Source: Arenicella chitinivorans (GTDB taxonomy: Bacteria > Pseudomonadota > Gammaproteobacteria > Arenicellales > Arenicellaceae). From it: 64,000 bases of DNA. The notes under the pieces were generated by a model. The model made no database searches and was not told the origin of the DNA. It was given only the letters and a program-made list of their open reading frames with translations. Every line of letters starts with the position of its first letter. Position 1 is the first letter of the stretch. This document shows, piece by piece, positions 6,265 through 27,740 of this stretch. A program made the position numbers and the translations under genes. The stretch lies in the NCBI RefSeq assembly GCF_014651515.1, contig NZ_BMXA01000001.1, positions 1,116,001 through 1,180,000 of the forward strand, written 5' to 3'.

Positions 6265-7790
6265 GAACGTGCCTGCCGCGAAGTCGTTTGCGCTGGGATA
6301 TGTCTATTAATATCGACGCCCAGCGCTAGCCACAATTCAGGACTCAGGGATTCGATTAAACAGTCTGCCAGACGATCCAGCTGGTGTTCGCGAATTGCGT
6401 TCAGGTCGAGGTGATTTTCGGATCGCAAACCGGCCCATGTCAAAAGGGCATGAGCCGCCTCGGCGTGGTCAAATAGACCGTGTAAGTAACTGCCCAATAC
6501 GGCGTTATCGGCCGAAACGCTCCCATCCCCACGACCATCCTTGAGATGCACGGGCGTGCGCTCATCGGAGGTGGTCGTACCGCAATGAATTTCATAGCCA
6601 GTGATGGCGGCACGAAGGGACCCGAGCTGAATCTGCCCTTGGCATTGTCGCAATTGCTTATGCGGTTGCAGCACCGTTTCACAGGCTAATAGGCCAAATC
6701 CGGTCTCCGTCTCGCCGGGTTCTGAATTTTCAATACCTAGCGGGTCCTGCACTGACTGACCGAGCATCTGATAGCCGCCACAAATACCAAGCACGCGCCC
6801 GCCATAGCGTAAGTGGCGTTCGAGCGTCTCTTGCCAGCCAGCCTGCTTTAGGGCACGCAGGTCGCTGATAACGTTCTTAGAACCTGGGAAAATAATTAAA
6901 TCTGTCGGTGGGCAGGGCTCGTGAATCGAAACGAATTGGCACTGCACATCGGGATGCAGTCTCAGTGCATCAAAGTCGGTGTGATTACTGATCCGAGGCA
7001 ACACCGGAACCACAATATTGAGCTTACTGGTAGCGCCCGCGTCGGGTTGCTGCGCACAAATCGCGTCTTCTGCATCCAAGTAAAAATCATGCAAATAGGG
7101 CACAACACCCAACACCGGTTTGCCAGTTTGCTGTTCCAGCCAATCCAGTCCCGATTGTAGTAAGGCAATATCGCCACGAAAGCGGTTAATCACAAAGCCT
7201 ACGACTCGCGCCTGTTCTGTCGCAGACAATAACGACAACGTGCCGACTAAATGCGCAAACACGCCACCACGATCAATGTCGGCGACCAAAATCACCGGGC
7301 AGTCGACGGCTTCGGCAAAGCCCATATTGGCTATGTCCCGATCTCGTAAATTGATCTCTGCTGGGCTGCCAGCGCCTTCAACCACAATGTGTGCATACTG
7401 CGTGGTGAGCCGACGGTGCGAGTCCAGTACCGCCTGCAATGCCACCTGTTTGTATTGGTGGTACGACTGTGCCTGCATATTGCCAACAGCGTGACCATGT
7501 ACAATCACCTGCGCGCCAATATCTGTGTTGGGCTTTAGCAATATCGGATTAAAATCCGTGTGGGCTGGCACATTGCAAGCCTGCGCTTGCACCGCTTGTG
7601 CACGGCCGATTTCGCCGCCATCAGCTGTCACGGCACTGTTGAGCGCCATGTTTTGGGGTTTGAATGGGGCTACGCGTTTTCCGTCACGCGCTAGGACACG
7701 ACACAGTCCAGCCACTATGACCGATTTGCCAGCGTCCGAGGTGCACCCTTGCACCATCAGTGTTTGACTATGTCGGAATCCGCTCAGCAA
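6261..7790 (-). CDS. cobQ: Cobyric acid synthase CobQ (CbiP)
   Basis: Glutamine-dependent enzyme that amidates the b, d, e and g carboxylates of adenosylcobyrinic acid a,c-diamide to give adenosylcobyric acid. The protein is 509 residues, usual length. The N-terminal dethiobiotin-synthetase-like ATPase half has '[15 protein letters not shown]' and '[11 protein letters not shown]'. '[21 protein letters not shown]' follows, and '[10 protein letters not shown]' is another hallmark. The C-terminal type 1 glutamine amidotransferase half has the nucleophile Cys337 in '[11 protein letters not shown]' and the His of '[10 protein letters not shown]'. It lies 1 bp downstream of cobO and overlaps btuC by 4 bp. 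CobQ is usually part of de novo synthesis, yet no corrin-ring genes are nearby. Confidence 0.96.
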
Positions 7791-7791
7791 T

Positions 7792-8409
7792 TCAGCAATC
7801 CACGCCTGGGCGCGCTTTTATGCCGGCTTTGTAGGCATGTTTAATATTTTTAACTTCCGACACGGTGTCCATGATGTCACGCAGTTCACTGCCGCCACCG
7901 CGACCGGTTACGACCACGCTTTGCTCGCGAGGGCGATGTTCGATTGCCGGCAATACTAAGTCGCGCGGTAAGTATTTGTATCCCAGCATATAGGTAAGTT
8001 CATCTAAAACCACGAGGTCGTAGCGCTCATCGGCCAGCATTCGAGCTGCGTCCTGCCAGGTTCGTTCCGCTGCGGCGATGTCGGCCGATTTATCCTGCGT
8101 GTTCCAGGTGAAACCCGTGCCCATTTGTACCAGATCGACACTGGGGCAGTGCGCTGCGATAAAATTGACCTCGCCAGACTGTTGCGCGCCTTTAATAAAC
8201 TGCACGATGCCCACTTTTTGGCCGTAACCAAGTGCGCGAAACACCATACCAAACGCTGAGCTGGATTTACCTTTGCCGTTACCAGTTAACAGGACAGCCA
8301 CACCGCGTTCTTGATTGGCCGCTGCGATGGCTGCGTCGACTTTTTCTTTTTGCTTCTGCATTTTCTTACGATGCAGTTTTTGATCGTCTGTTTGGTTTTT
8401 GGTACTCAT
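7792..8409 (-). CDS. cobO: Corrinoid adenosyltransferase CobO/BtuR
   Basis: Transfers the 5'-deoxyadenosyl group of ATP to the cobalt of reduced corrinoids; it acts in both de novo synthesis and salvage. The P-loop is 'GNGKGKSS' at residues 43-50. '[15 protein letters not shown]', 'GTGFTWNTQ', '[11 protein letters not shown]' and the end '[14 protein letters not shown]' match BtuR/CobO along the whole length. I choose the ATG at 8407-8409 (205 residues), preceded by a GGAA ribosome-binding site. The frame can be extended to 8466, but the added residues do not resemble the family. The Lys/Gln-rich N-terminus is normal for the family. It follows btuB by about 74 bp and precedes cobQ by 1 bp. 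Confidence 0.95.
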
Positions 8410-8483
8410 AGTTGTTCCGGGTTTGTCTGTGTTGGACTGAGCGCCTTGTCGCAACAGTCCAACCAAGGAAAGGGACGACCGAT

Positions 8484-10301
8484 CTAGAAACTGTATCGTA
8501 CGCTGATGCGTGCAGTCCGACCTTCAGTATTGTACCGGTCGACACTGTTTACCAAGTTTAAGGTGTAATCTTTATCTAGCGCGTTCTCGACTTTGGCCGA
8601 CACGCGAAGTTGATCATTCAATTGATACACCACACCAATATCAAATAATCCGTAACTCGGTAGTTCTGTACCGCTCCGATCATACAAGCCGCGCTGCGCG
8701 CGCAAATCAAATCGGGCTTCTAATTTGTCAAATCGCCGGCTTGCCGTTGCCGCGAAATTTTGTTCGGCGCGACCATCCAATTCGACGTCAGTGTCTTTAT
8801 TGGTGGCCGATAATAAGTCTAGATTTAACTTGAGCTGCCAATCGGCAACGGATGTGCCAAGCTCCGCTTCAATCCCTTCCAGTTCCGCTTCACCGATATT
8901 GGCAGCAAGGAACGTATTTGAGTCAAAGCTAAATAGGTTCTCGATCTCCGTTTGATACGCAGAGACGCGCCAGTTTAAATTGCGATGTTCCCCAACTAAG
9001 CTGAGCTCCGTACTGGCGGATTCTTCCGGTAGAATGTCTGGGTTGCCGAAGCCTGGGAAATACAAGTAATTAAACGAAGGCGCAACGAATGCGGTGCCAT
9101 AACTGGCAACGAGACGTACATCGTCGGTCAAATTGAAACTACCCGCAATACTGCCATTTGTGTTGGTCTCATAGGCTGAGTTATCGTCGTAACGCAGGCT
9201 GGCAACAAGTCCAGTGCGCGAACCGGTTAGCTTGACTTGTCCATAGACGCCCGCGTTGTCGCGCTCGGTGAGGTCGTAGGTATTCGTTGAGTCGATTTCC
9301 TCTTGGTAGTAGTCGGCTCCCAAGGTAACCACAAAATTAGCGTTTTCACTCCAAGACAACTCGGTACCCAGACTCTCTCGGCTGGTCTCAAATAGCGAGG
9401 GGAAGCTGCTAAATGTTTCTGCTTCATCTTCGTTTAGACCCAGCGTGGTTGACCAACGGAGTGACGCGCTCAAATTCGATTCGATTGCGAATGCCGTGCT
9501 GAGCGTTTTGGTCTCGGTATAGCGGCCCCCGTCGTTACCGAATGTGTCATCGAATTCCACCGCGTTGTCAGTACCAAGCACGGACAGCTTGGCAACTGTG
9601 TTTTCGCCGATGGCGAGCTGACCGCCAACGCTGATCGCTTGCTCTTCAAAGCTGTCGATGTCGTCGTTGCCACCGGTAAGGATTGAGGTGCGATCGATGC
9701 CGTCGGTATCTTCACTGTGCGCGGCTACGTGGAAGCTGTAACCCTGACCGCCGCCGTTGAAACTGGCATCGTATTCTTGCAATGAGTGGCTGCCGAAGGC
9801 AGCGCTTACTGATCCCAAGCCATCGCCACCTTTCTTGGTAAAAATCTGAATGACACCACCAACCGCATCGGCTCCGTAAATCCCCGAGAAAGGTCCTTTC
9901 AATACTTCGATACGCTCAATCGCTTCGATGGGGTAGCTGTTTAGCGCCGCCTCACCGAGCGTGGCACTGCCAACGCGAACGCCATCGATTAACACAATGG
10001 TTTGTGAGCCAGAAACACCGCGCACGAATACGCTGGTTGCGGAGCCTCGACCACCGGATTCGATCACGTTAACACCGCTGATGGCAGCCAGTAATTCTGG
10101 AATGTCAGCAACTTGTGCTGATTCAATGTCTTCCAAGGTAAAGATATGGGCCGTATGAAGTGCTTCGTTCCAAGCTTGGCCGCCTTTGGCGGTGACAACG
10201 ATCTGGTCGCGTGGTGAAGTCGGGATGTCTGAATTAGCATGGACACTGCTGGCGGCCAGCAGGCAGGCTGCCGCGAGTGTGGATTTGACGGGAATAGTCA
10301 T
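8484..10301 (-). CDS. btuB: TonB-dependent outer-membrane cobalamin receptor BtuB
   Basis: Active outer-membrane transporter for vitamin B12, energised by TonB. The protein is 605 residues, close to E. coli BtuB. A signal peptide (residues 1-22, ending in SVHA) is followed by the TonB box region 'DQIVVTAK' and a plug domain with 'VFVRGVSGSQTIVLIDGVR' and 'IERIEVLKGPFSGIYGADA'. The 22-strand barrel follows and ends in the terminal aromatic 'RYSF' expected for BAM recognition. 'NALDKDYTL' near the end is typical of the last strands. It is the first gene after a cobalamin riboswitch, the classic btuB arrangement. An AAGGTG ribosome-binding site lies about 10 nt before the ATG. Other TonB receptors could look similar, but the riboswitch and operon settle the ligand class. 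Confidence 0.94.
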   Translation of the reverse strand: MTIPVKSTLAAACLLAASSVHANSDIPTSPRDQIVVTAKGGQAWNEALHTAHIFTLEDIESAQVADIPELLAAISGVNVIESGGRGSATSVFVRGVSGSQTIVLIDGVRVGSATLGEAALNSYPIEAIERIEVLKGPFSGIYGADAVGGVIQIFTKKGGDGLGSVSAAFGSHSLQEYDASFNGGGQGYSFHVAAHSEDTDGIDRTSILTGGNDDIDSFEEQAISVGGQLAIGENTVAKLSVLGTDNAVEFDDTFGNDGGRYTETKTLSTAFAIESNLSASLRWSTTLGLNEDEAETFSSFPSLFETSRESLGTELSWSENANFVVTLGADYYQEEIDSTNTYDLTERDNAGVYGQVKLTGSRTGLVASLRYDDNSAYETNTNGSIAGSFNLTDDVRLVASYGTAFVAPSFNYLYFPGFGNPDILPEESASTELSLVGEHRNLNWRVSAYQTEIENLFSFDSNTFLAANIGEAELEGIEAELGTSVADWQLKLNLDLLSATNKDTDVELDGRAEQNFAATASRRFDKLEARFDLRAQRGLYDRSGTELPSYGLFDIGVVYQLNDQLRVSAKVENALDKDYTLNLVNSVDRYNTEGRTARISVRYSF

Positions 10302-13636: not shown

Positions 13637-14626
13637 CTACATAAGCTTGATGTAGAGCAGGATGATCAGCGCAATCCAGGCTGTTTCGGTGACCAAAATC
13701 AGAATTGGTTTCACGCCAACATGCAACAACTGTCGCAGGTTGCTTTTCATACCGATAGCCGCGATGGCCATCACCAACGCAAAGCGTGACACCTCACTGG
13801 CGCCGGTAATCAATGTTTCGGGTAGAGTGACAAGGCTGTTCAGTATCATCAAGGCGATGAACGCGGTGAGAAACCAGGGTAAAAGCGGAACTCGGTGAGC
13901 CTCTGTGTGCTCTTTACGGGCTTTAAGAAAAAGCACGAACATCAACACCACGGGTACTAGATAACTAACGCGTACCAGTTTAGTCAGGGTTGACAGATCC
14001 CCAGTTTCGGTTGATACGGAGTAACCGGCACCAACCACCTGGGCTACATCGTGGATAGTGCCACCCAGAAATAAACTGGTTTCATAAGTTGACAAGCCGA
14101 GTTTCGCAGCGAGAATCGGATACATAATCATGGCGACCGTAGAAAGTAAGGTAACGCCAATCACCGTTAGCAAGGTATCACGTTCACGGCCAGGGTAGTT
14201 TGGCATGACCGAGGAGATTGCCAGTGCTGCCGAAGCGCCACATATTCCGACCGCACCACCGCTGAGTGCACCGAAATAACGTGACATACCAGCAAGTCGG
14301 CTGATGGTCAGACCGATCAGAATCGTGGAGCCGACTGCCAGAGCAAGCAGCAAGCATGCCTGCCATCCCAGCGCGAGTAAATCGGCTACCGCGACCCGCA
14401 ATCCAATCAGCGCAACGCCAGCCTTGAGCAAGTGGCTGGCTGCAAAATCGATGCCATATTGACACTTCGTTTCTTCATAGAGAAATGAGACTGCAATGCC
14501 CAGCAGGAGCGCCAGCAGCATTACCGGCGTTGCGTAATGTTCGCTTAAGAACATGGCCGCCAATCCAGTAATCCCCACCACACCAATTCCGGGTGAAAAT
14601 CGCTGCCAAGCGTTGAGAAAACCCAT
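13637..14626 (-). CDS. Putative sulfate/sulfite exporter, PSE/YeiH family (UPF0324)
   Basis: Inner-membrane protein of 329 residues with about ten hydrophobic segments. 'KAGVALIGLRVAVADLLALG', 'FGALSGGAVGICGASAAL' and 'LFLGGTIHDVAQVVGAGY' are hallmark segments of the YeiH/UPF0324 family, placed in the Putative Sulfate Exporter group with SuyZ, which is encoded with sulfonate-degrading enzymes in Paracoccus. It is the last gene of the minus-strand operon, starting 13 bp after the TauD-family dioxygenase stop. That position suggests it removes sulfite (or sulfate) released by C-S bond cleavage. The transport activity of this family is known mainly from gene context, so the substrate is an inference. 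Confidence 0.85.
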   Translation of the reverse strand: MGFLNAWQRFSPGIGVVGITGLAAMFLSEHYATPVMLLALLLGIAVSFLYEETKCQYGIDFAASHLLKAGVALIGLRVAVADLLALGWQACLLLALAVGSTILIGLTISRLAGMSRYFGALSGGAVGICGASAALAISSVMPNYPGRERDTLLTVIGVTLLSTVAMIMYPILAAKLGLSTYETSLFLGGTIHDVAQVVGAGYSVSTETGDLSTLTKLVRVSYLVPVVLMFVLFLKARKEHTEAHRVPLLPWFLTAFIALMILNSLVTLPETLITGASEVSRFALVMAIAAIGMKSNLRQLLHVGVKPILILVTETAWIALIILLYIKLM

Positions 14627-14639
14627 AAAAATCTGAACC

Positions 14640-15614
14640 TTATGCGGCTAATGCAACAAGTACTTCACGTTTTCGTTCACCACTGTATGGACGGCGACCG
14701 TGCATGGTTAATTTATTATCCACCAATGCCACATCGCCATCCTGCCACTGCAAATCGAAGGTGTATTTTTGGGCCAAATCGACAATGAGATCCAGCCCCT
14801 CACGGGGGATCGCTGAGCCGTCACCGAAGGTGATGGCGCGCGAGGGATTTTCACGCACGCCTTGCCACCCAAGGTACGCGGCAATGAGCTGGTTGTAAAA
14901 TACGCGCGTGCCGTTTTCCAATGTCAGTACGGCGGGTAGAACCGGCGTGGTAGCACGCAGGCCACCGTTTGAATCCCATTCCCAAGTGTAGCCCATGCCC
15001 GCCAACTTGGCCTCGGCCTCGGTGATGTCTTGCGCACTCATGGTACTGCGCCAACTGCGGCCCTGACCTGATGCATGATCGTCTTCGGCTGGCATGTGCG
15101 TGGTATACAATAAGCCGAGTGAGGCAAACTTGGCGGCTAGCTCGGCGTCGGCTGCTTCCAACCCTGCGAACAACATGTCAGAGCGACAGAGGGGGGTCGC
15201 GCCACCTTGATCTGCAGCGGACTTGCAGAAAAAAAACAGTTTTTGCGGCGATTTGGGTGTTTGTGCCATTTCGTGGTGAAGAAATATCTCAACGTCTTTG
15301 GGCGCCTCATTGGCCGTAAACACACGCTTAGTGAAATTGATCCTTACCGCGTTTGATAGTGATTCCTGATACGTGAAGCTCGGGTAGCCAAACGCATCTG
15401 AAAAGGTATCGAAGGATTCGGCATCAACAACCGGAAACCCGCGGAATAACAGGGCTCCAGATTGGGCCAATTCGGTTTCCAGTTCTTGTTGGTTGGCCTG
15501 TAGCCATGCGCGTGTTTCGTCCAGCGTGCGAAACTCTTGCTCGTTTACCACAATAGAAGGGAAAACGCCGGATTCGAACTGGAGTTGGTCTTTGCTTGTC
15601 TGATAGTTAATCAT
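14640..15614 (-). CDS. TauD/TfdA-family Fe(II)/2-oxoglutarate dioxygenase, candidate sulfonate dioxygenase
   Basis: Probable non-heme iron oxygenase coupling substrate hydroxylation to 2-oxoglutarate decarboxylation. With a C-S substrate this gives aldehyde plus sulfite. I start at the ATG at 15612-15614 (324 residues), which has an AAGGAG site. Visible features are 'ALLFRGFPV' (residues 54-62), the iron motif H113-x-E115 in 'FLHHEMAQ', the distal His305 in 'KLTMHGRRPY', and Arg314/Arg316 for 2-oxoglutarate. The HxE form and 'KRVFTANEAP' place it nearer the SyrP/plant clavaminate-synthase-like subgroup than E. coli TauD. It lies between an aldo-keto reductase and a PSE exporter, 30 bp and 13 bp away, so an organosulfonate substrate is likely; the sugar sulfoquinovose is my leading guess. 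Confidence 0.85.
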   Translation of the reverse strand: MINYQTSKDQLQFESGVFPSIVVNEQEFRTLDETRAWLQANQQELETELAQSGALLFRGFPVVDAESFDTFSDAFGYPSFTYQESLSNAVRINFTKRVFTANEAPKDVEIFLHHEMAQTPKSPQKLFFFCKSAADQGGATPLCRSDMLFAGLEAADAELAAKFASLGLLYTTHMPAEDDHASGQGRSWRSTMSAQDITEAEAKLAGMGYTWEWDSNGGLRATTPVLPAVLTLENGTRVFYNQLIAAYLGWQGVRENPSRAITFGDGSAIPREGLDLIVDLAQKYTFDLQWQDGDVALVDNKLTMHGRRPYSGERKREVLVALAA

Positions 15615-15644
15615 GAGTGGACTCCTTGACGTGCGCAATTGATA

Positions 15645-16613
15645 TTAATCATAAATTGGGTGAAAGCGATTGAATGCCTGAGCACAAAATACCCCGGGGT
15701 CATTAAATCGACGGTTTTGGTTTAATGCACTAATCGACTGCATTTCCGCGTCACTGAGTTCGAAATCGAAGAGCGCGGCATTCTCGATCATTCGTTCTGG
15801 CTTACTGGTTTTGGGGATGATCGCTGTACCGCGCTGAATCCCCCAGCGTAGCACGACTTGAGCTGGTGTCTTTCCAGTTCGTTTAGCTGCTTCCAATACA
15901 CTCTGTTGGCTGAGCACAGACTCTTGCTGGGTGGCCATGTCTAATTCTAGATAAGACAGCGCGCCGAGGGGCGAAAAGGCAGTGACCGGGATATCGTTCA
16001 TGGCACACAAACGCAGCAGTGGTTCTTGTGTGAGGTAAGGGTGCGCTTCGATTTGCATCATCGCTGGCTTCACGTGCGCGTAGCTTAGTAGGTCATGTAA
16101 CAGTCCAGTGTTGTAATTACACACTCCAATTTGACGGGCAAGGCCTGCGGCATGAATATCTTCCATTCCTTGCCATGTTTCACTCAATGGCACTTTGGCT
16201 GGGACCATCCGCGGCGCATCTGCCGCAGGGTCAAAAAACCAGCCTGCAGGGTAACGGGTTTCAATTGGAACATACGTTTGAGCGATCGGAAAATGCACTA
16301 AATACAAATCAAGATAGTCTAATTGTAAGTCACTCAGGCTTTTTTCAATCGCCGGTAGAACATGCTCACGCGCGTGATGGGTGTTCCAAAGCTTCGACGT
16401 GACCCACAGTTCGTCCCGGGTGCAAAGGCCGTCGTTTAATGCACGCTTTATTCCCATGCCGACCTCGCGCTCGTTACCGTAGTCGCTGGCGCTATCCAGG
16501 TGTCGGTAACCCAGTTCAATGGCTTTATATACCGTATCGGCACAGGTTTCAGGTGGCAATTTCCACAGGCCGAAACCAACGGGAGGAATCTGAGTGAGGG
16601 TTTTAGTGTTCAT
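15645..16613 (-). CDS. Aldo-keto reductase, aldose/xylose-reductase-like (AKR2 type)
   Basis: NAD(P)H-dependent carbonyl reductase of 322 residues when started at the ATG at 16611-16613; an in-frame ATG at 16644-16646 would add 11 residues. The catalytic tetrad is visible: Asp and Tyr in 'LDSASDYGNE', Lys in 'VTSKLWNTHH', His in 'LVHFP'. 'RWGIQRGTAIIPKTSKPERM' is the cofactor phosphate loop, and the late 'RFNDPGVF' closely resembles yeast xylose reductases. It is the first gene of an operon with the dioxygenase and exporter, 30 bp upstream of the former. In that setting it could reduce the aldehyde left by desulfonation, for example 6-oxoglucose to glucose. The alternative is reduction of a free aldose such as xylose. 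Its start lies close to a palindromic operator. Confidence 0.88.
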   Translation of the reverse strand: MNTKTLTQIPPVGFGLWKLPPETCADTVYKAIELGYRHLDSASDYGNEREVGMGIKRALNDGLCTRDELWVTSKLWNTHHAREHVLPAIEKSLSDLQLDYLDLYLVHFPIAQTYVPIETRYPAGWFFDPAADAPRMVPAKVPLSETWQGMEDIHAAGLARQIGVCNYNTGLLHDLLSYAHVKPAMMQIEAHPYLTQEPLLRLCAMNDIPVTAFSPLGALSYLELDMATQQESVLSQQSVLEAAKRTGKTPAQVVLRWGIQRGTAIIPKTSKPERMIENAALFDFELSDAEMQSISALNQNRRFNDPGVFCAQAFNRFHPIYD

Positions 16614-16665
16614 CAATTCTTTGGTTTTTTGTTGTCGGTGTTGCATTTATGCTGCGCTCAATATT

Positions 16666-16686
16666 ATTATATCTTATATAAGATAT
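16666..16686. promoter_or_regulatory. Palindromic operator overlapping the reductase-operon promoter
   Basis: A perfect 18-bp palindrome, ATATCTTATATAAGATAT (16669-16686), sits between the divergent reductase operon and the gntR-type gene. A minus-strand TATAAT (16666-16671) overlaps it, so a bound regulator would occlude the -10/spacer region of the reductase operon. The -35 is poor. The core TCTTATATAAGA recurs before the TonB receptor gene at 21536-21547. The adjacent GntR/UTRA protein is the obvious candidate binder. Confidence 0.7.
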
Positions 16687-16840
16687 CAAAGTTATTTTGT
16701 ATGAGGTCTTGGCGTATTATTTGCATTGCAGAGGTCCTTATTGTTTGAGACTTGGTTAGAATAGGGTGGAGTTCGTGAAACTGGCAGCGGTTGTTGTCAT
16801 GTCTCGAACCACACTAAATTCAACTATTCGGGTGTGCGCC

Positions 16841-17560
16841 ATGTCCCTTACAACAAATTTTCAACCGCTTTATAAACAGGTTTACGACGTCTTGGTCAAG
16901 CGACTGGTCGATGGTTACTGGAAACCCGCTGAGACGCTGCCGAGTGAATTCGCGTTGGCAAAAGAACTCGGGGTCAGTCAAGGCACCGTGCGAAAAGCGT
17001 TGAATCAGATGGTGGCGGAAAACTTGTTGCGCCGCCGTCAAGGTAAGGGCACCTATGTGTCTGAGCACACTCAAGAGAGTTCCTTGTATCGATTTTTTCG
17101 ATACCGCGAGCCCGGTGGCGAGAAGGTTATTCCGGAAACCACGGTGATCGGGACACGACGTCGCAAGGCAACAAAGCAAGAACAATCGAGATTTGGTTTG
17201 GGCTCGAACGTGCAGTTAGTGGAAATGCAAAGGCTAAGAACTATCAAAGATTTACCAGCGATTTATGAGATTGTTGTTCAGCCTTTATCATTGTTTCCAG
17301 ACATCGACAAAGAAAAAGAGTTACCGAACTCGCTCTACACGCTTTATCAAGAAAAGTATGGCATGAGTGTAGTTGAAGTGCGTGATGAACTGAGCGCTGT
17401 CATTTTGTCTGAAGAAATTGCAGAGCACCTGGACTTAAAGCCGGGCGCGCCCGCGCTAAAAAACACGCGCTCGAGTATCAGTATCGATGGTCGTGTTATT
17501 GAAGTGAGCACGGCTTATTGTAGCAGTAACAATTTTGTTTATTCGGTCACCATAAAATAA
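16841..17560 (+). CDS. GntR-family transcriptional regulator with UTRA ligand-binding domain
   Basis: Predicted DNA-binding repressor sensing a sugar or sugar phosphate. The N-terminal winged helix (about residues 8-75) contains 'PLYKQVYDVLVKRLVDGYW', 'LPSEFALAKELGVSQGTVRK' and 'LLRRRQGKGTYVSEH', a clear HutC-subfamily GntR pattern. Residues about 95-235 form the UTRA domain, with the typical 'MQRLRTIKDLPAIYEIVVQP' and 'SSISIDGRVIEVSTAYCSSNNF'. I start at the ATG at 16841 (239 residues); the frame extends back to 16766 but the extra N-terminus has no HTH content. It is 41 bp upstream of the GH31 gene on the same strand and divergent from the reductase operon, so it probably controls the whole locus. 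Confidence 0.9.
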   Translation: MSLTTNFQPLYKQVYDVLVKRLVDGYWKPAETLPSEFALAKELGVSQGTVRKALNQMVAENLLRRRQGKGTYVSEHTQESSLYRFFRYREPGGEKVIPETTVIGTRRRKATKQEQSRFGLGSNVQLVEMQRLRTIKDLPAIYEIVVQPLSLFPDIDKEKELPNSLYTLYQEKYGMSVVEVRDELSAVILSEEIAEHLDLKPGAPALKNTRSSISIDGRVIEVSTAYCSSNNFVYSVTIK

Positions 17561-17601
17561 CTCAACTATGCGCTGAGGTGGCCAGCGTGATTGTGTAATT
17601 T

Positions 17602-19743
17602 ATGACTAAAAACAAACTGGCCCAATCACTATCTCTGGATACCCCCGACTGGAACGCCATTGACGCAGCGCATGTGGTAGGAACACTCGAACACTGCTCA
17701 AGTACTCGGGTTTCGATACCGTTGTCTATTGGTACCATCTCGGTGGAAATGTTCGAACATGGTGTGCGCTTCGCTTCCGATAAGCAACGACAATACGATT
17801 ATCAGCTTGTGCTCAATCCACCGGCACTCAGCGAGCTGTCGCTCAATGTGATGGAGGAGTATGCAGAAATTAGTTCGCCACATTATGTGATGCGAGTGGA
17901 CTTCGCGCCGTTCGCGTTTCAGGTGGTCAATCATCGCGGGCGAGTACTGGCAGCCTCTGCCAATGACGGTCACTTTGTTCGTCAACATCGCATACCACCC
18001 TTGGCTCGCACTGAAGATGGATGGCTTTGGTCTATGGCTATGGCGTCTGGGGAACGGTTTTACGGCTTAGGCGAAAAATGGGGGGCTCTGGATAAGCGCG
18101 GTCAGTTAGTCCGATCATACAATCACGACGCGCTGGGTGTGAATGGCGAGATATCCTATAAAAACACCCCGTTTGGCTGGAGTCCCGAAGGGTGGGGCGT
18201 GTTCATCCATACACCAGCCGCCGTCACACATGCAGTAGGTTTTCCGGCATGGTCGCAGCGTAGCTATTGCGCGTACATCGAAGATACTGTGCTCGATATC
18301 TTCGTGCTGTTATCGGATCCCGATGTCGTTGCGCCAAGCGTCGGCCATACGATGCTTCGGCTCTATTCGGATATCACCGGTTACGCACCACCACCGCCAA
18401 GTTGGTCGGGTGGTGCCATTCTGTCCAAAGCTTACTACAAAACCGCAGATGAAATTATTGCTGTGGCGGAAGATGTGCGGCGACGTCAACTTCCTTGCGA
18501 TGTGATTACCTTTGATGGTCGCGCTTGGCAGGATACCGATACACGCTTTGCGTTCGAATGGGATGCGTCAAGATATCCAGATCCAAAGCCTGTGATCGAC
18601 CGTTTAAAGCAGCTTAATTTTAAGATCTGCGTTTGGGAGTATCCGCTTATTTCCGTTCAGCATCCTTGGTTTGACGAATTTGCTGAGAAGGGCTGGCTAC
18701 TCAAAGATCGGCGCACGGGCGAGGCCTATCGCTATTCGTGGGACATGCAAGCTTTTGGCAAGGTACTTACGCCGTTGCCCGATTCTGGGATTGTGGATTT
18801 TACGCACCCAGATGCTTACGCATTTTGGCGAGATGCACACAAGCCTTTGTTTGAACTCGGTGTTGATATGATCAAGGCTGATTTTGGTGAGCAGGTCGAA
18901 GATGACCAGATGATCGCGCACAACGGTGAGCATGGTTTGGCATTGCATAATGTGTATGCACACCTGTACAACCGGTGCGTTTATGAAGCGGCAGAAATGT
19001 ACTGTCAGTCTGGACCTTTCCTATTTAGCCGCTCAGCATGGACTGGCAGCCAACGGTACAACAGTCAATGGGGCGGCGATCCACAGGCAGACTGGGAAGG
19101 CATGATGGGGAATATCCGCGGTGGCTTGTCTTGGGGGCTCTCTGGCGCACCATTTTATGCAACGGATATCGGTGGATTTTATAAAGATACGCGAAACGCT
19201 GCACTTTATGTTCGCTGGGCTCAAGCCGGTGTGTTTTCTGCACACTACCGACTCCATGGTATCGGGGCACGTGAGCCGTGGTCCTACGACGCGGCTGCAG
19301 AGTCTGCGGTGCGATCTGCGATCCTATTACGGTATCAGCTTCAGTATTACCTTCAGCGCACAATGCGCCAAGCCACCGAGAGCGGTATTCCGGTACAGCG
19401 CCCCATGGTGTTGTCATTTCCAAATGAGAAGCAGGCATGGGCGTTCGAAAATCAATTCATGTTTGGTGAAGATATTCTGGTTGCACCTTGTTTCTCGCCT
19501 GACGGCGTTGTTGACGTGTATTTTCCACACGGGCAATGGGTGAGACTCGATATCAATGCGAGCGCATCGCAAGCTGTCTACGACGGGGGACGAGTGCACA
19601 GGTTGGCGCTTGCGCTCGACGAGATTCCGGCGTTCATTCAAACCAGCTCACGAATCCCGTTGAATGCGCTACATCAAGTTACATCGGACATACCGATGGA
19701 CCAAGACAATAACTACAAAATAGAACGATTCTGGCCACAATAG
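17602..19743 (+). CDS. Glycoside hydrolase family 31 (alpha-xylosidase-like), candidate sulfoglycosidase
   Basis: Retaining alpha-glycosidase of 713 residues with no signal peptide, so cytoplasmic. The N-terminal beta domain has 'GERFYGLGEKWGALDKRG'. The TIM barrel has the nucleophile Asp427 in 'MIKADFGEQ' and the acid/base Asp493 in 'QWGGDPQADW', spaced 66 residues as in E. coli YicI. 'DIGGF' and 'SAHYRLHG' also follow the YicI pattern. The -1 subsite loop, 'DCFW' in YicI and 'DID' in alpha-glucosidases, reads 'DGRAW' here, putting Arg307 at the specificity position. The Arg and Trp of YihQ-type sulfoquinovosidases are not conserved at the aligned positions. An anionic C6 group is therefore plausible but unproven; alpha-xylosidase is the conservative call. 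It is followed 18 bp later by the symporter gene. Confidence 0.85.
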   Translation: MTKNKLAQSLSLDTPDWNAIDAAHVVGTLEHCSSTRVSIPLSIGTISVEMFEHGVRFASDKQRQYDYQLVLNPPALSELSLNVMEEYAEISSPHYVMRVDFAPFAFQVVNHRGRVLAASANDGHFVRQHRIPPLARTEDGWLWSMAMASGERFYGLGEKWGALDKRGQLVRSYNHDALGVNGEISYKNTPFGWSPEGWGVFIHTPAAVTHAVGFPAWSQRSYCAYIEDTVLDIFVLLSDPDVVAPSVGHTMLRLYSDITGYAPPPPSWSGGAILSKAYYKTADEIIAVAEDVRRRQLPCDVITFDGRAWQDTDTRFAFEWDASRYPDPKPVIDRLKQLNFKICVWEYPLISVQHPWFDEFAEKGWLLKDRRTGEAYRYSWDMQAFGKVLTPLPDSGIVDFTHPDAYAFWRDAHKPLFELGVDMIKADFGEQVEDDQMIAHNGEHGLALHNVYAHLYNRCVYEAAEMYCQSGPFLFSRSAWTGSQRYNSQWGGDPQADWEGMMGNIRGGLSWGLSGAPFYATDIGGFYKDTRNAALYVRWAQAGVFSAHYRLHGIGAREPWSYDAAAESAVRSAILLRYQLQYYLQRTMRQATESGIPVQRPMVLSFPNEKQAWAFENQFMFGEDILVAPCFSPDGVVDVYFPHGQWVRLDINASASQAVYDGGRVHRLALALDEIPAFIQTSSRIPLNALHQVTSDIPMDQDNNYKIERFWPQ

Positions 19744-19761
19744 GCTGGAGCAGGGGGAGGC

Positions 19762-21471
19762 ATGTTTGCCAACGAACTCATATTTACGCTGTTGTCGTGT
19801 GTCTTCTTTATGGCACTCGTCGGCTGGTTGTCGTATCAAAAAACCAAAGGAAGTGTGGATGACAAGGACGGCTATTTTTTGGCTGGACGAGGCTTAACTG
19901 GCACATTCATCGCGGGGTCAATGTTGCTCACGAATTTGTCAGCTGAGCAATTGATCGGTCTAAATGGCTCGGCGTACGGCTTTAATATGAGTGCCATGGC
20001 CTGGGAAGTCACAGCGGGCTTTGCGACGATCATTATGGCATTGGTGTTTTTACCTCGATATTTATCAGGTGCTTTCGCCACATTGCCTACGTTTCTGCAA
20101 GACAGGTACGATGACGGCGTACGTCGATTAACCGTGGTTCTATTTATGGTTGGTTATGGCCTAGTCACCATACCATCGATTCTCTATTCTGGGTCGGTTG
20201 CCGTATTGCGACTCTTCGATGTACCTACGTTGTTGAACCTGCCTTACTCGCAAGCCCTCGTCGTTACCGTGTTGATTGTGGGGTCAGTCGGCGCAGTGTA
20301 CGCCGTGTTTGGCGGGTTGAAGGCAGTTGTTGTGTCCGACACTATCAATGGCATCGGGCTGCTCATTATTGGGTTGCTGGTGCCAACACTGGGCTTGATT
20401 CTGCTCGGAGACGGGAGTTTTATGCAAGGCCTGACCACCGTGGCGACCACTGAAACGCATAAGCTAAACGCAATTGGTTCGCCAACTGATCCAGTGCCTT
20501 TTGGGACGATTTTTACCGGCATGATCTTAGCCAATTTATTTTATTGGGGCACAAACCAGTACGTTATTCAGCGTACGCTCGGTGCGGCAAGTTTGGCAGA
20601 AGGACAGAAGGGCGTATTGCTCTCGGGTTTCTTCAAGCTGTTGGTGCCGTTTATGATGATGATTCCCGGGGTTATTGCCTACCATCTTTACAATCACGGT
20701 GGCGAGACCCTCCCGTCTATCGATCTGGCTTATCCACAGTTGGTCAAAGATGTCTTGCCCATCTACTTGTCTGGCTTTTTCCTCGCCGTGTTACTTGGCG
20801 CCGTATTTAGTTCGTTTAACTCTTTGTTGAATAGCGCTGCGACGCTGTTTTGTTTGGACGTTTACCAACCGCTGAAAAAAACCGAAGTATCTGATTCAGA
20901 GTTAATCAAAGTGGCGAAAATTGCCAGTATTGTGATCGCCATATTCTCGTTTATCGTAGCGCCGCTGCTGCAATTTGCCCCCGAGGGTTTGTGGCAGATT
21001 ATTCGCATCTTTACGGGTTTCTATAATATTCCCGTTATCACGATTGTCTTGGTCGGGCTCTTCACGCGCCGGGTACCCGCACTTGCCGCTAAAGTCGCGA
21101 TTTGTTTCCATGTTGTGGCTTATGGGTTACTTAAATTTGTCATCGATATCGATTTAAATTTCATCCATATCTACGCGGTGTTATTTGTGATCGAGGTTGC
21201 CATTATGTTGTTGATCAGTTACTGGCAGCCCCGCAGCACGGATTGGCACTTTAAGCATGCTGCTAAGGTGGATATGCGGCCATGGCGTTACGCGCCGGCG
21301 GCAAGCATGACGATGATTAGCGCGATAATCCTGGTGTATTTGCTTTTTTCTCCGGTCGGTTTGGTTGGCGGAATTACGCCAGCGTTCTGGGTTTACGCTA
21401 GCGTGTGCGTATTGCTTAATGTTGCGCTATGCCTTTGGTCAATTAAACGACCGCGTCAAACGCATTCCTAA
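19762..21471 (+). CDS. Sodium:solute symporter (SSS family), SGLT/YidK-like sugar transporter
   Basis: Inner-membrane Na+-coupled transporter, 569 residues with about 14 hydrophobic segments. 'DGYFLAGRGLTGTFIAGSML' and 'NLSAEQLIGLNGSAYGF' are typical of the SGLT-like branch, as is 'VYAVFGGLKAVVVSDTINGIG'. 'FYWGTNQYVIQRTLGA' corresponds to the TM7 region that carries the sugar-binding Asn/Gln in vSGLT. A strong GGGGGAGG ribosome-binding site precedes the ATG by a few bases, 18 bp after the GH31 stop, so the two genes form one transcript. The likely cargo is the glycoside cleaved by the GH31 enzyme. No clear terminator follows. Confidence 0.9.
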   Translation: MFANELIFTLLSCVFFMALVGWLSYQKTKGSVDDKDGYFLAGRGLTGTFIAGSMLLTNLSAEQLIGLNGSAYGFNMSAMAWEVTAGFATIIMALVFLPRYLSGAFATLPTFLQDRYDDGVRRLTVVLFMVGYGLVTIPSILYSGSVAVLRLFDVPTLLNLPYSQALVVTVLIVGSVGAVYAVFGGLKAVVVSDTINGIGLLIIGLLVPTLGLILLGDGSFMQGLTTVATTETHKLNAIGSPTDPVPFGTIFTGMILANLFYWGTNQYVIQRTLGAASLAEGQKGVLLSGFFKLLVPFMMMIPGVIAYHLYNHGGETLPSIDLAYPQLVKDVLPIYLSGFFLAVLLGAVFSSFNSLLNSAATLFCLDVYQPLKKTEVSDSELIKVAKIASIVIAIFSFIVAPLLQFAPEGLWQIIRIFTGFYNIPVITIVLVGLFTRRVPALAAKVAICFHVVAYGLLKFVIDIDLNFIHIYAVLFVIEVAIMLLISYWQPRSTDWHFKHAAKVDMRPWRYAPAASMTMISAIILVYLLFSPVGLVGGITPAFWVYASVCVLLNVALCLWSIKRPRQTHS

Positions 21472-21535
21472 CACGAAGCACTTTTTTTGCGTCTTGATTC
21501 GAACCAAGCGCACCACGACCGAGGACGCATATAAC

Positions 21536-21583
21536 TCTTATATAAGATATCTATTGTAAAATAAACCAGTGTTGGGGTAGACT
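21536..21583 (+). promoter_or_regulatory. Second copy of the TCTTATATAAGA operator, with a possible promoter, before the TonB receptor
   Basis: The 12-bp palindrome TCTTATATAAGA (21536-21547) is identical to the core of the operator at 16672-16683, and its right flank (TAT) also matches. It is about 170 bp upstream of the receptor gene. A weak promoter, TTGTAA (21554-21559) and TAGACT (21578-21583) with 18-bp spacing, lies just downstream of it. The rest of the 21472-21719 intergenic region shows nothing else I can name. Confidence 0.6.
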
Positions 21584-21719
21584 GGTTTGATTGGTGTAAT
21601 CTGACACGCGCAACTCAGCGTAAGTTTGGCGTAACGCGACTCATACCGTGTTGATCAGAGGCCCAATACTCAGTTAGAGCAGCGTCGCTCTGACAATAAC
21701 CACTGAGAGGAGAAAAATA

Positions 21720-24035
21720 ATGAATACAAGGTTAAAAGCAATCCCGAGGCTTATTTTGTCGGGCACTGTCGCGGCCGGATTATCCATGCCCGTTGCACAC
21801 GCGCAGACCGTGTTAGAAGAAATCGTGGTGACCGCACAAAAACGAGAAGAAAGAGTCTCCGATGTGCCAATCGCAGTGTCCGTACTAAACTCAGATAAAA
21901 TTGACGCCGCGCACGCGGTGGGCTTCGAGGGTTTGCAGCAGCTAATACCTTCGGTATCTGTCCGAAAGGGGAATACCAACCGCAACTCGACAGTGGTTAT
22001 CCGAGGGATCGGCACCATCTCTTTTAGTACCGCCGCTGAGCCAAGTGTCTCTACCGTCGTCGACGGCGTGGTACTTGCGCGCTCTGGGCAGGCTTTCACC
22101 GATCTATATGATCTGGAGAGGCTAGAGGTCTTGCGCGGGCCACAAGGCACCTTATTTGGTAAGAATGCGTCCGCTGGCGTGGTGAATATGACCACCAAAC
22201 GGCCCAGCGAAGAATTGACTGGCAGTGTGGATGTCTCTGTTTTCGAAGGCAATGAAACCCGTCTGAAAGGTCGCATATCTGGGCCGTTGTCGGAATCTGC
22301 GCGAGCCAGCTTGACGGTGTTTGATGGCAGTTTCGATGGTTACATTACCAACACGTTCACAGGCCAAGACACCAACGGATACGATCGCACTGGTTTCCGA
22401 GGTATGCTTGAATGGGATGTGTCTGACTCGGTCGACGTTTTGGTCATTGCCGAGGATTACAGCGCTGAGGATAATTGTTGTGCGGACTTAGAGGGTTTGC
22501 CGAGTGGCCGTAACCCAGCATCGCCTGCCGCTCCTAACAGTGCGGGCATTGTCAATGGTGTTGCCGATATCGACTTATCTCAACGTTTAATTGATCATGA
22601 TCTGGAAACCAGTACGCAAGACGACCATTCAGCGTTGTCGGTGCAAATCGATGCGGATATTGGTGATTATGTACTGACCTCAATCACCGCGGGCCGCGAG
22701 TGGGATAACACTGAAGTCCGTGAAGGCGACTTCACTTCCAATGCTGGTGACGTTGCACAACCGGTGGACTTTTCGAACACCTTCTTCCAGCTTCATGACC
22801 TGGGTATTCAAAGCTGGGAACAGTTTTCGCAGGAATTGCGCATTACCTCGCCAGCCGGTGAACGGTTTTCATGGCAAGCCGGTTTGTTCTACTGGAATTT
22901 GGAGTCTGACCGTAGCTTCAGACGCGACGCCAGTTGCCAAGTGCACCCAAATAATGACCCAATCTTGGAGGCGAACCCTGGCTTAACGTGCTTAGCCAAC
23001 GATATCGTTGCAGCCACAGCCGTATTTGATACCAAGTTCGAGAACTTTGCGGTTTTCGGACAGGGTAATTTGCGTCTCAGTGACACGCTTAATTTGATAT
23101 TAGGCTTGCGTTACACCGATGACGAAGTGTCCTTTAACCATCGACGAACCAATGACGACCCATTTGGCCGACGCGGTGTTGGTGTACGTGGGGCCGGCAA
23201 TAACACTGACTTTTCAAATTCAACCAGCGAGACCAATACGTCAGGAAAGATTGGTTTGCAATGGGATGTGTCGGACAGTGGTATGCTGTACGCAACCTAC
23301 TCACAAGGCTACAAGGGCCCGGCCTTTAACACTTTTTATAATATGGCCGAGACCGACACCTTACCGATTGGTGCGGAAACGTCGGACGCGTATGAGTTGG
23401 GGTACAAACTGACTACCGATTCTTTGTTTGCCAACCTGACCTTATTCAAAACCGACATCGAAGGGTTTCAAGCCAATAACTTTGACGACTCCAGCGGTGT
23501 CACCATCACGCGGTTGACGAATGCAGGCGACGTTTCAACCCAAGGCATCGAGCTCGATTTACTGTGGCAAGCTACTGACAACTTGCAAATTTCGGGTGGC
23601 TTTGCTTCGGTGGACGCAGAGATTGACCGATTTAATTGCCCGCGCGATGCGGCGGCGGGTAGCTGTACGGATCGAAGTGGCCTGGATGTGCCATTTTCAC
23701 CTGACTTAAAGTACACCTTGAGTGCGAACTACGTGCTGCCGATGTCATCGTTTGACGTCATTCTCAATGGCTCGTTCGTTCATATGGACGAACAAGTGTC
23801 TGATCTGCCTGGCAACAACGGTACGGTTAACCCCGCCGCGGTCTTGCCTGGTTATGACATTTTGAATGCCAGCGTGGCCTTCTCATTTAACGAGGGGCGA
23901 TACGTGCTGACATTGATTGGTAAAAATCTAGGCGATGAGTCCTATGTGACGACCTACAGCGGGGACAATTTCCGCTACCAAATTCCGCGCGATGCAGAGC
24001 GGTATTTTGGCGTCTCATTCAAGGCCGAGTTCTAA
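21720..24035 (+). CDS. TonB-dependent outer-membrane receptor, probable glycoside importer
   Basis: 771-residue outer-membrane transporter. A signal peptide of about 28 residues ends in AHAQ, then the TonB-box-containing 'LEEIVVTAQKREERVSDVPI' and a plug with 'VVIRGIGTISF' and 'LYDLERLEVLRGPQGTLFGKNASAG'. The long beta-barrel ends in '...FGVSFKAEF' with terminal Phe. This 'EEIVVTAQKREE' class is abundant in marine proteobacteria and often imports carbohydrates rather than iron. There are four Cys in two close pairs in extracellular-loop-like stretches ('DNCCADLEG' and 'RDASCQVH...LTCLAND'), plus 'FNCPRD...GSCTDRSG'. A GAGGAGAA site precedes the ATG. It shares an operator with the reductase operon, so I group it with the GH31/dioxygenase locus. 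Its ligand is inferred. Confidence 0.88.
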   Translation: MNTRLKAIPRLILSGTVAAGLSMPVAHAQTVLEEIVVTAQKREERVSDVPIAVSVLNSDKIDAAHAVGFEGLQQLIPSVSVRKGNTNRNSTVVIRGIGTISFSTAAEPSVSTVVDGVVLARSGQAFTDLYDLERLEVLRGPQGTLFGKNASAGVVNMTTKRPSEELTGSVDVSVFEGNETRLKGRISGPLSESARASLTVFDGSFDGYITNTFTGQDTNGYDRTGFRGMLEWDVSDSVDVLVIAEDYSAEDNCCADLEGLPSGRNPASPAAPNSAGIVNGVADIDLSQRLIDHDLETSTQDDHSALSVQIDADIGDYVLTSITAGREWDNTEVREGDFTSNAGDVAQPVDFSNTFFQLHDLGIQSWEQFSQELRITSPAGERFSWQAGLFYWNLESDRSFRRDASCQVHPNNDPILEANPGLTCLANDIVAATAVFDTKFENFAVFGQGNLRLSDTLNLILGLRYTDDEVSFNHRRTNDDPFGRRGVGVRGAGNNTDFSNSTSETNTSGKIGLQWDVSDSGMLYATYSQGYKGPAFNTFYNMAETDTLPIGAETSDAYELGYKLTTDSLFANLTLFKTDIEGFQANNFDDSSGVTITRLTNAGDVSTQGIELDLLWQATDNLQISGGFASVDAEIDRFNCPRDAAAGSCTDRSGLDVPFSPDLKYTLSANYVLPMSSFDVILNGSFVHMDEQVSDLPGNNGTVNPAAVLPGYDILNASVAFSFNEGRYVLTLIGKNLGDESYVTTYSGDNFRYQIPRDAERYFGVSFKAEF

Positions 24036-26864: not shown

Positions 26865-27740
26865 ATGTCGGCACCAGAAACTTTTTTCCATATTGGTTAT
26901 GCGCGCGCAGCGTCAACGTTTTTGCAAAAAACTGTGTTTCCGGCGCTCACTGGCTTGCAATACATTCCACGCAACAATTTTCGCGTTCGGGAGCGCGAGA
27001 AGCGCCGATTTAAGGCCGACAAAATTTTAATGTCGCGCGAAGCAGGGGAGTTTATCTTTGATCGGGTTGAGCGCGTTCATGAAATATTTGGCAGCCGAAT
27101 AATAATTTCGTTGCGTCGTCATGATGTGTTGGCGGCATCAACCTATCGACTGTATGTTAAAAATGGTCAGACCTTCCGATTTGAACAGTTTCTGGATTTA
27201 GAAAACAATAATGGTGTGCGAAAACTGGAAGATTTCACCTACATGCGTCTGTTTGAGCATGTGGAAAAAGTGACTGGTCAAAAGCCGATTGTCCTAATCT
27301 TTGAAGATTACATCGCTGACCCTGATTTCTACATCGACACTCTGTGTACGGCGTTGGATTGCGGCGTGGACAAATCCAAACTCAGCCACCGCGCCGTGCA
27401 CAAATCATACAGTGACAAGCAGTTACGCCTGCGACGTCAGATGTCGGAAAAGTATTTGTCGCCAACGGAGTCACATGCACGTTTAACGGGCATCGGGATT
27501 GACGACTATACCTTTGGTCGGCGTATGAAAGAAAAAATTATGGTCCGTGTATCGGGTCTGCTGATGCGCCTAATTCGCTTCGCGCCGGACTCTTGGCTAA
27601 ATCAAGAACCGCTGATTAATCAGGCGCATGCAGACGCCGTACGTGAGTATTTCGCTGAGGATTGGAAGGCAGCCTATGCGTACGTCGAGCACCAAAGCGA
27701 GGCGCTCGGCGTAACACGTCGTAAACCTGCGCCGTACTAG
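26865..27740 (+). CDS. Sulfotransferase-like protein
   Basis: 291-residue protein resembling PAPS-dependent sulfotransferases. The N-terminal 'FFHIGYARAASTFLQKTVFP' fits the 5'-phosphosulfate-binding loop (consensus like GxxRxGTTxLQ, here ending in STFLQ). 'IIISLRRHDVLAASTYRLYVKNG' fits the 3'-phosphate motif (R..D...S.Y). 'PIVLIFEDYIADPDFYIDTLC' matches the later conserved segment. No signal peptide or membrane segment is evident, so the enzyme should be cytosolic. The acceptor is unknown; such enzymes modify polysaccharides, lipids or small molecules. A TATAAT (26817-26822) lies shortly upstream. The stop codon overlaps the end of the convergent acyl-CoA dehydrogenase gene by 4 bp. Confidence 0.72.
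   Translation: MSAPETFFHIGYARAASTFLQKTVFPALTGLQYIPRNNFRVREREKRRFKADKILMSREAGEFIFDRVERVHEIFGSRIIISLRRHDVLAASTYRLYVKNGQTFRFEQFLDLENNNGVRKLEDFTYMRLFEHVEKVTGQKPIVLIFEDYIADPDFYIDTLCTALDCGVDKSKLSHRAVHKSYSDKQLRLRRQMSEKYLSPTESHARLTGIGIDDYTFGRRMKEKIMVRVSGLLMRLIRFAPDSWLNQEPLINQAHADAVREYFAEDWKAAYAYVEHQSEALGVTRRKPAPY

Follow-up and report, generated by a model that had tools for sequence, protein, structure and literature searches.

A stretch of 64,000 nucleotides from the 4.03-Mb genome of Arenicella chitinivorans (contig NZ_BMXA01000001.1, positions 1,116,001 to 1,180,000; hereafter "the window") carries seven genes that very likely form a self-contained, GntR-controlled regulon for the aerobic use of sulfoquinovosides through the dioxygenase pathway known as sulfo-SDO, with a GH31 glycosidase that would represent a sulfoquinovosidase lineage other than that of YihQ. 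The substrate is probably sulfoquinovosyl glycerol. All seven genes (Table 1) were recovered by open reading frame (ORF) and Pfam/NCBIfam profile searches of the window, with the positions and families that had been assigned to them when the DNA was read from its letters alone (the sequence-only reading). The aldo-keto reductase (AKR), the TauD-family dioxygenase and the PSE-family exporter do lie in a tight operon, as that reading had it, with a gap of 6 bases between AKR and dioxygenase (30 if counted from the probable ATG of the latter) and of 13 bases between dioxygenase and exporter. Beyond this one locus, we consider it likely that the GH31 enzyme stands for a third, hitherto unrecognised kind of sulfoquinovosidase, namely a second GH31 lineage independent of YihQ that came from the alpha-xylosidase side, is marked by the signature GRAWQDT...TR, is usual in sulfo-SDO loci of marine Alteromonadales, Arenicella and SAR92-type bacteria, and is used by bacteria with the sulfo-Entner–Doudoroff (sulfo-ED) pathway too; together with the TonB receptor and the palindromic operator it would make up a regulon for the uptake of whole sulfoquinovosides.

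In the proposed route, the TonB receptor and the SSS symporter would import the intact glycoside, which the cytoplasmic GH31 enzyme would split into sulfoquinovose (SQ) and glycerol. The dioxygenase, using O2 and 2-oxoglutarate, would then oxidise C6 to yield sulfite and 6-dehydroglucose, the AKR would convert 6-dehydroglucose to glucose, and the PSE protein would expel sulfite or sulfate, while the sugar would free the GntR protein from both palindromes. The GH31 lineage may have arisen on the alpha-xylosidase (YicI) side, and its two arginines would stand where YicI closes its xylose pocket. We infer every enzyme activity, the exact substrate, the direction of transport and the mode of regulation from observed gene content and order, operators, residue changes, the exchange of sulfoquinovosidase families and a link to sulfo-ED-like gene sets. 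The sequence-only reading had already proposed that the glycoside is imported and hydrolysed, that the sugar is desulfonated by an oxygenase and the resulting aldehyde reduced, and that sulfite is exported; comparative genomics now supports this sequence of steps.

The window GH31 protein is 32% identical to YicI and 25% identical to YihQ, and an export signal was not seen by eye at its N-terminus, so that the enzyme is probably cytoplasmic. The catalytic pair is retained, with the nucleophile D427 and the acid/base D493 aligning with D416/D482 of YicI and D405/D472 of YihQ. YicI F277, C307 and W315 correspond to Y278, G306 and R315 at the aligned positions, and F308 is lost as well by either of two alignments; we take C307, F308 and W315 to be sugar-pocket residues of YicI. 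R301, W304 and Y508, which presumably form the sulfonate site of YihQ, are also absent, the window protein having F316 at W304, F526 at Y508 and either D313 or a gap at R301. Instead, it shows the signature G306-R307-A-W-Q-D...R315, of which R307 and R315 are present in 59 of 60 GH31 ORFs, the exception being a YihQ-type protein (locus L100); the GH31 proteins of Balneatrix, Paraglaciecola and genome G118 carry both arginines too. In a tree of 67 rows (58 different) with just YicI and YihQ as outside references, the window-type proteins form a single clade (support 100/99), and YihQ and the L100 protein group separately (100/100). The window enzyme thereby falls outside the monophyletic YihQ group, and as judged by sequence it is nearer to the YicI side than to YihQ. 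The Arenicella loci L015 to L025 contribute to both the 60 ORFs and the 67 tree rows, and lie outside the set of 81 loci described next.

Neighbourhoods were compared over 81 loci, comprising the window stretch 4000–26000 and the best 80 of at least 519 relatives of the dioxygenase. Neighbour families were scored by tblastn (E 1e-12) with one query per family within 10.5 kb, a procedure that distant members can escape, and the counts include some weak matches (PSE 28% in L083, TonB receptor 33% in L101, GlpD 28% in L085). A window-type GH31 gene is found near the dioxygenase in 53 of the 81 loci, a GH188 gene in seven and a YihQ-type GH31 gene in one. In L102, the GH188 protein has the SqgA structures 8qc3 and 8qc2 (codes as given in PMC10755693) among its matches, at 2e-97 and 2e-94, its top hit being an unnamed oxidoreductase, 8zn9, at 3e-99, and it retains the R-x3-L-x-K motif whose Arg, Leu and Lys bind the sulfonate; similarity to this protein served to assign the remaining six, the residues having been checked in L102 alone. 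The YihQ-type enzyme of L100 (Vibrio sp. CK2-1) is 54% identical to YihQ, has the YihQ loop and retains R301, W304 and Y508, and its dioxygenase is nested among the partners of window-type GH31 proteins in a tree clade of 10 rows (100/100). Known sulfoquinovosidase families thus replace the GH31 enzyme in 8 of 81 loci, which supports SQ as the substrate. As a separate observation, the dioxygenase orthologues of L082, L083 and L097 adjoin GH188 genes and show no match to the usual AKR.

This exchange bears directly on two other explanations. In the first, the same chemistry would serve some sulfosugar other than SQ or a sulfonated glycan of larger size, such as sulfofucose or SQ-bearing oligosaccharides, as might be suspected from a GH31 enzyme that is not YihQ-like and from a TonB receptor within the same regulon, TonB receptors being more usual for larger ligands. 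We regard this as unlikely, because the same dioxygenase family can partner GH188 or YihQ-type enzymes, both of them sulfoquinovosidase families, and because two genomes pair the GH31 enzyme with a sulfo-ED-like set whose dehydrogenase retains both sulfonate arginines (see below). In the second, dioxygenase and AKR would act on SQ while the GH31 enzyme freed another anionic sugar, for instance a uronate, and was merely co-regulated. The two added arginines would suit a carboxylate too, and in some loci the SSS symporter is replaced by TRAP transporters, which are common carboxylate carriers. Against this stand the replacement of the GH31 enzyme by sulfoquinovosidase families and the lack of uronate genes among the nine annotated neighbour families (other recurring neighbours were left unannotated), and we consider such a division of labour barely credible. 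The substrate, which the sequence-only reading had left as SQ or some other sulfosugar, can hence be narrowed to SQ by the glycosidase exchange together with the link to sulfo-ED-like gene sets.

That link was found in Balneatrix alpica, where an operator site on a second contig accompanies a window-type GH31 gene, a TRAP transporter, TauE and GntR (L151). These stand together with genes for a short-chain dehydrogenase/reductase (SDR), a lactonase of the SMP-30 type, an aldehyde dehydrogenase, a dehydratase (IlvD/Edd) and an aldolase (HpcH/HpaI). The set fits the sulfo-ED pathway step by step, in the form described in PMC12133307. In a solved-structure search, which covers the L151 dehydrogenase alone, the best hit was 9GWU, the SQ dehydrogenase of Pseudomonas putida, with 277 bits, the runner-up scoring 231. 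Arg152 and Arg154 of SQ dehydrogenase, which PMC12133307 places at the sulfonate, are retained in L151 as well as in L159 of genome G118, both with the motif WMRGR in a position anchored by Ser147, Tyr160 and Lys164. Balneatrix alpica (L151, L089) apparently has both sulfo-SDO and sulfo-ED-like routes, with the same kind of operator.

Within a class sample of 369 genomes, window-type GH31 occurs in six (E 1e-120) and the dioxygenase in seven (E 1e-80), with both present in five, four of which are Arenicella. The remaining GH31 genome, G118, gave no dioxygenase match at E 1e-80; its window-type GH31 gene adjoins a TonB receptor, TRAP genes and a one-mismatch operator, and on a different contig a dehydrogenase gene whose product is 58% identical to that of Balneatrix adjoins dehydratase, lactonase and aldolase genes. 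All six GH31 genomes therefore have an apparent SQ route, either sulfo-SDO or sulfo-ED-like. Of the two genomes with the dioxygenase only, G368 and G403, the former has the order GH188-AKR-TauD and the latter a 40% homologue without an AKR. A phylum sample of 299 genomes contained window-type GH31 in two, the window genome and G458. At E 1e-30, no sulfo-ED set was found in any of the 81 loci, the window included, apart from one weak aldehyde dehydrogenase match (L069).

Among 109 genomes from the order, 12 gave a dioxygenase match at E 1e-40, the window's own included, and all 12 belong to one genus. In 11 congener genomes the order TauD-AKR / GntR-GH31-SSS-TonB receptor is retained up to the contig ends, except that GntR is missing between GH31 and AKR in L025. 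A scan of named genomes yielded at least 519 relatives, and the best 80 come from Alteromonas, Paraglaciecola, Glaciecola, Pseudoalteromonas, Vibrio, Colwellia kin, SAR92-type bacteria and others. A search for the same gene neighbourhood, which the sequence-only reading had suggested, showed that 74 of the 81 loci have the AKR no more than 1.5 kb from the dioxygenase and that at least one of PSE, SorA, TauE and SulP is present in 52, one of them just through the 28% PSE match. Individually, PSE is near the dioxygenase in 47 loci (one at just 28% identity), a SorA-like molybdopterin oxidoreductase in 23, TauE in 14 and SulP in five; a small SorB-like partner (22 loci) has no Pfam match and was named by its position and by visual recognition of a CxxCH motif. 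That several unrelated sulfite/sulfate families adjoin one dioxygenase argues for sulfite release. Transport genes include SSS (40 of 81), TRAP DctM (16 of 81) and TonB receptor matches (43 of 81), and a GlpD-like gene adjoins the GH31 gene in L091, L094, L098 and L099, which fits the release of glycerol. In two Paraglaciecola species, P. mesophila and P. polaris, GH31, TRAP and GntR genes lie about 17–19 kb from the dioxygenase, with the same kind of operator site. An AKR-TauD pair was also seen in L103, a metagenome-assembled genome titled Planctomycetota, by transfer or binning error.

The palindrome TCTTATATAAGA occurs in the gap between AKR and GntR and again upstream of the TonB receptor, and even with one mismatch allowed the window contains no third site (expected number 0.06; two sites reached in none of 100 shuffles). 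The genome holds no further exact copy, and at one mismatch two additional sites were found, giving four in total versus seven for the control pattern. An operator common to the two places, as the sequence-only reading had it, is therefore borne out by an exact pair that is unique in the genome. With up to one mismatch allowed, the 81 loci (1.49 Mb) contain 127 operator-like sites, compared with seven for the reversed pattern. Such sites are present in 57 loci, comprising 48 of the 53 with window-type GH31, nine of the 20 in which no glycosidase was found, none of the seven with GH188 and not the one with YihQ-type GH31. Genome-wide searches of 12 other genomes with a 16-base pattern, allowing one mismatch, placed the operator in 11 of them, mostly inside the dioxygenase or GH31 locus, with a single site outside the expected loci in G764; the control pattern gave five hits spread over four of the 12. 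Chance clustering was rejected given the gene order retained across families and the 127 versus seven sites.

A number of observations weigh against an SQ regulon of this design. Many of the 81 loci are close kin and their counts are not independent, 20 have no glycosidase in the stretch (some of their contigs being short), and G403 has a 40% dioxygenase match without an AKR. Four of the six GH31 genomes of the class sample belong to one genus, and the count of SQ routes covers these six and not the other 363. In G767 (C14, L150), three operator-like sites lie on a contig separate from the dioxygenase among genes without a tie to SQ, near an SSS-like gene that is 34% identical to the window symporter. 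Equivalents of YicI W345, K414, F417 and F515 are retained in the window GH31 protein, and the two aligners differ on whether YicI F308 is replaced by R307, or by A308 with R307 inserted. The best solved kin of the AKR are aldose and xylose reductases, and the Balneatrix set could be named otherwise: its SDR has D-xylose 1-dehydrogenase as best NCBIfam model (310 bits, cut-off 400), its dehydratase passes the L-arabinonate dehydratase model (941 bits, cut-off 882), its aldehyde dehydrogenase passes the succinate-semialdehyde dehydrogenase model (729 bits, cut-off 646), and the best solved kin of its aldolase is deoxy-galactarate aldolase. Here the two sulfonate arginines of the SDR lead us to prefer SQ over pentose or semialdehyde names.

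Taken furthest, such resemblances would make the window an alpha-xyloside or neutral alpha-glycoside locus, in which a YicI-type alpha-xylosidase and a xylose-reductase-like AKR are joined by a dioxygenase with another substrate. The GH31 protein does have the alpha-xylosidase model as its top profile and 5f7c and YicI among its top solved matches, the best hits of the AKR do include xylose reductases, and the ED-like set of Balneatrix has families in common with pentose pathways. Yet the GH31 score of 400.9 bits is below the alpha-xylosidase cut-off of 606 and the pocket residues C307, F308 and W315 are gone, while sulfite/sulfate genes (PSE, SorA-like, TauE, SulP) recur near the dioxygenase and the ED-like dehydrogenases retain both sulfonate arginines. 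On these grounds we rejected the alpha-xyloside locus as highly improbable, and the SQ regulon remains the preferred explanation.

The dioxygenase residues H113-x-E115, H305 and R316 are invariant in an alignment of 12 orthologues, and by analogy we take them to be the ligands of the metal and of 2-oxoglutarate. Among solved structures, its closest kin are At3g21360 (a clavaminate-synthase-like protein) and 9yut; as far as this comparison reaches, the dioxygenase is not placed firmly with amino-acid or antibiotic hydroxylases, an outcome that the sequence-only reading had named as refuting. The sulfo-SDO (sulfo-ASDO) pathway was described by Ye et al. in 2023 for the SqoD and SquF proteins from Marinobacterium aestuarii (as cited in PMC12890257, PMC13372026 and PMC13219744), of which the window dioxygenase and AKR may be counterparts. 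An indirect connection is offered by Vibrio ulleungensis, in which the single PF02668 protein found (E 0.001) is a dioxygenase orthologue 54% identical to the window query, and which PMC13372026 lists as sulfo-SDO by BLASTp against a reference SQ dioxygenase (at least 30% identity, E at most 1e-50), on an assembly that may differ from the one analysed here. For the AKR, the role of 6-dehydroglucose reductase is suggested by its place beside the dioxygenase. A second TauD-family protein of the window genome (G000:C2:198105-199022; L002, L026) is 26% identical to the window dioxygenase, and no other window-gene query matched within 20 kb around it.

The sequence-only reading had included the PSE exporter in the pathway, and its presence in the window and in 47 of the 81 loci agrees with this, but within Arenicella it is optional. 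The window protein reaches the broader family PF03601 and scores 140.2 bits with TIGR00698 (YeiH/PSE sulfate exporter), below the cut-off of 232.6. PSE directly follows TauD in just the window and L018 out of 12 Arenicella neighbourhoods (the L015 contig ends too early), and of 11 Arenicella genomes four encode a full-length PF03601 protein, which in two cases lies on another contig; the exporter was accordingly rejected as a core component. PF03601 was not found in the dioxygenase-bearing Arenicella genomes G001, G002, G009 (85% complete), G014 and G016, in which sulfite must thus exit or be consumed otherwise. SorA-type oxidation was rejected as the answer for Arenicella, since PF00174 was not found in the 10 genomes searched, nine of them Arenicella. 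TauE-family proteins are present in 11 of 11 Arenicella genomes and also in 14 of 14 controls and are hence uninformative. That the exporter is mostly missing within the genus, with SorA-type proteins not found in nine genomes, adds to the points against our explanation. Two uncultured bacteria whose dioxygenases group with an Arenicella one in the tree (L035, L063) both have PSE.

With the published sulfo-SDO clusters, as known from citing descriptions, the window locus shares a TauD-type Fe/2-oxoglutarate dioxygenase adjoining a reductase, with sulfite as the expected product, and a distribution in marine Gammaproteobacteria including Alteromonadaceae and Vibrio; in the window these are accompanied by the non-YihQ GH31 enzyme, the SSS symporter, the TonB receptor, the PSE exporter and the GntR palindrome regulon. 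From YihQ-type enzymes (E. coli YihQ, SmoI), with which it has the GH31 fold, the retaining catalytic pair and an SQ-pathway neighbourhood in common, the window GH31 protein differs by its separate clade and by having the R307/R315 signature in place of a conserved R301/W304/Y508. It is on the nearer tree side to YicI-type alpha-xylosidases and shares their K-x-DFGE nucleophile motif, in contrast to the altered pocket and the score below the family cut-off. The NAD-dependent GH188 sulfoquinovosidases (SqgA) take the glycosidase role beside the same dioxygenase family, but they belong to an unrelated family (GFO/IDH/MocA) and were not found near the window locus. Balneatrix and G118 combine window-type GH31 with a set corresponding to the sulfo-ED pathway of P. 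putida SQ1.

Known GH31 sulfoquinovosidases are described as one monophyletic group, with some SQ degraders lacking yihQ (PMC13219744), and two sulfoquinovosidase types are recognised, YihQ of GH31 and SqgA of GH188 (PMC12330013). A literature search of partial coverage returned no account of a non-YihQ GH31 sulfoquinovosidase, a TonB receptor for SQ or a TCTTATATAAGA operator. The novelty considered possible by the sequence-only reading has shifted: the dioxygenase route is already published, and a GH31 enzyme as such is usual for SQ, so that the glycosidase is unlike the known type not by family but by standing outside the YihQ group. From sequence comparison, this lineage appears to be the new point. 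SQ is produced at about 10 billion tons per year (PMC13219744). In surveys that rely on yihQ or GH188 as gateway markers, these bacteria would be scored as lacking the ability to open sulfolipid glycosides. If our reading is right, the separate GH31 solution would supply a new marker gene and a clear test of convergent sulfonate recognition within one enzyme family, and the outer-membrane receptor and the regulator would become candidates for the sensing of sulfoquinovosides by common marine genera.

Table 1. Genes and operator sites of the proposed sulfoquinovoside regulon, in window coordinates.
Feature	Position	Strand	Evidence and remarks
PSE-family anion (sulfite/sulfate) exporter	13637–14626	−	PF03601 218 bits; final gene of AKR-TauD-PSE operon
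TauD-family Fe(II)/2-oxoglutarate dioxygenase, proposed SQ dioxygenase (SqoD-type)	14640–15614	−	PF02668 111 bits; ORF starts 15638, ATG 15614 favoured by alignment with kin
AKR, proposed 6-dehydroglucose reductase (SquF role)	15645–16646	−	PF00248 167 bits; start probably ATG 16613
Operator palindrome TCTTATATAAGA, between AKR and GntR	16672–16683	.	Pattern search
GntR/UTRA (HutC-type) regulator, proposed locus repressor	16841–17560	+	PF00392 and PF07702; ORF starts 16766, kin point to ATG 16841
GH31 glycosidase, YicI-side lineage, proposed sulfoquinovosidase	17602–19743	+	PF01055
SSS-family sodium symporter, proposed inner-membrane sulfoglycoside importer	19762–21471	+	NF007790 726 bits, cut-off 401
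Second operator palindrome TCTTATATAAGA, 5′ of TonB receptor	21536–21547	.	Pattern search
TonB-dependent outer-membrane receptor, proposed for sulfoglycoside	21720–24035	+	PF00593 and PF07715; N-terminus signal-like (by eye)

Close to the locus, a sulfotransferase-like protein (assigned by eye) is encoded at window positions 26865–27740, and its copy in L015 is 96% identical. On the other side, window positions 5227–10301 hold a cobalamin-type neighbourhood that encodes a TonB receptor as well as proteins resembling corrinoid adenosyltransferase, CobQ and BtuC/FecCD (likewise by eye), which is retained in several Arenicella loci and also adjoins L094 and L098.

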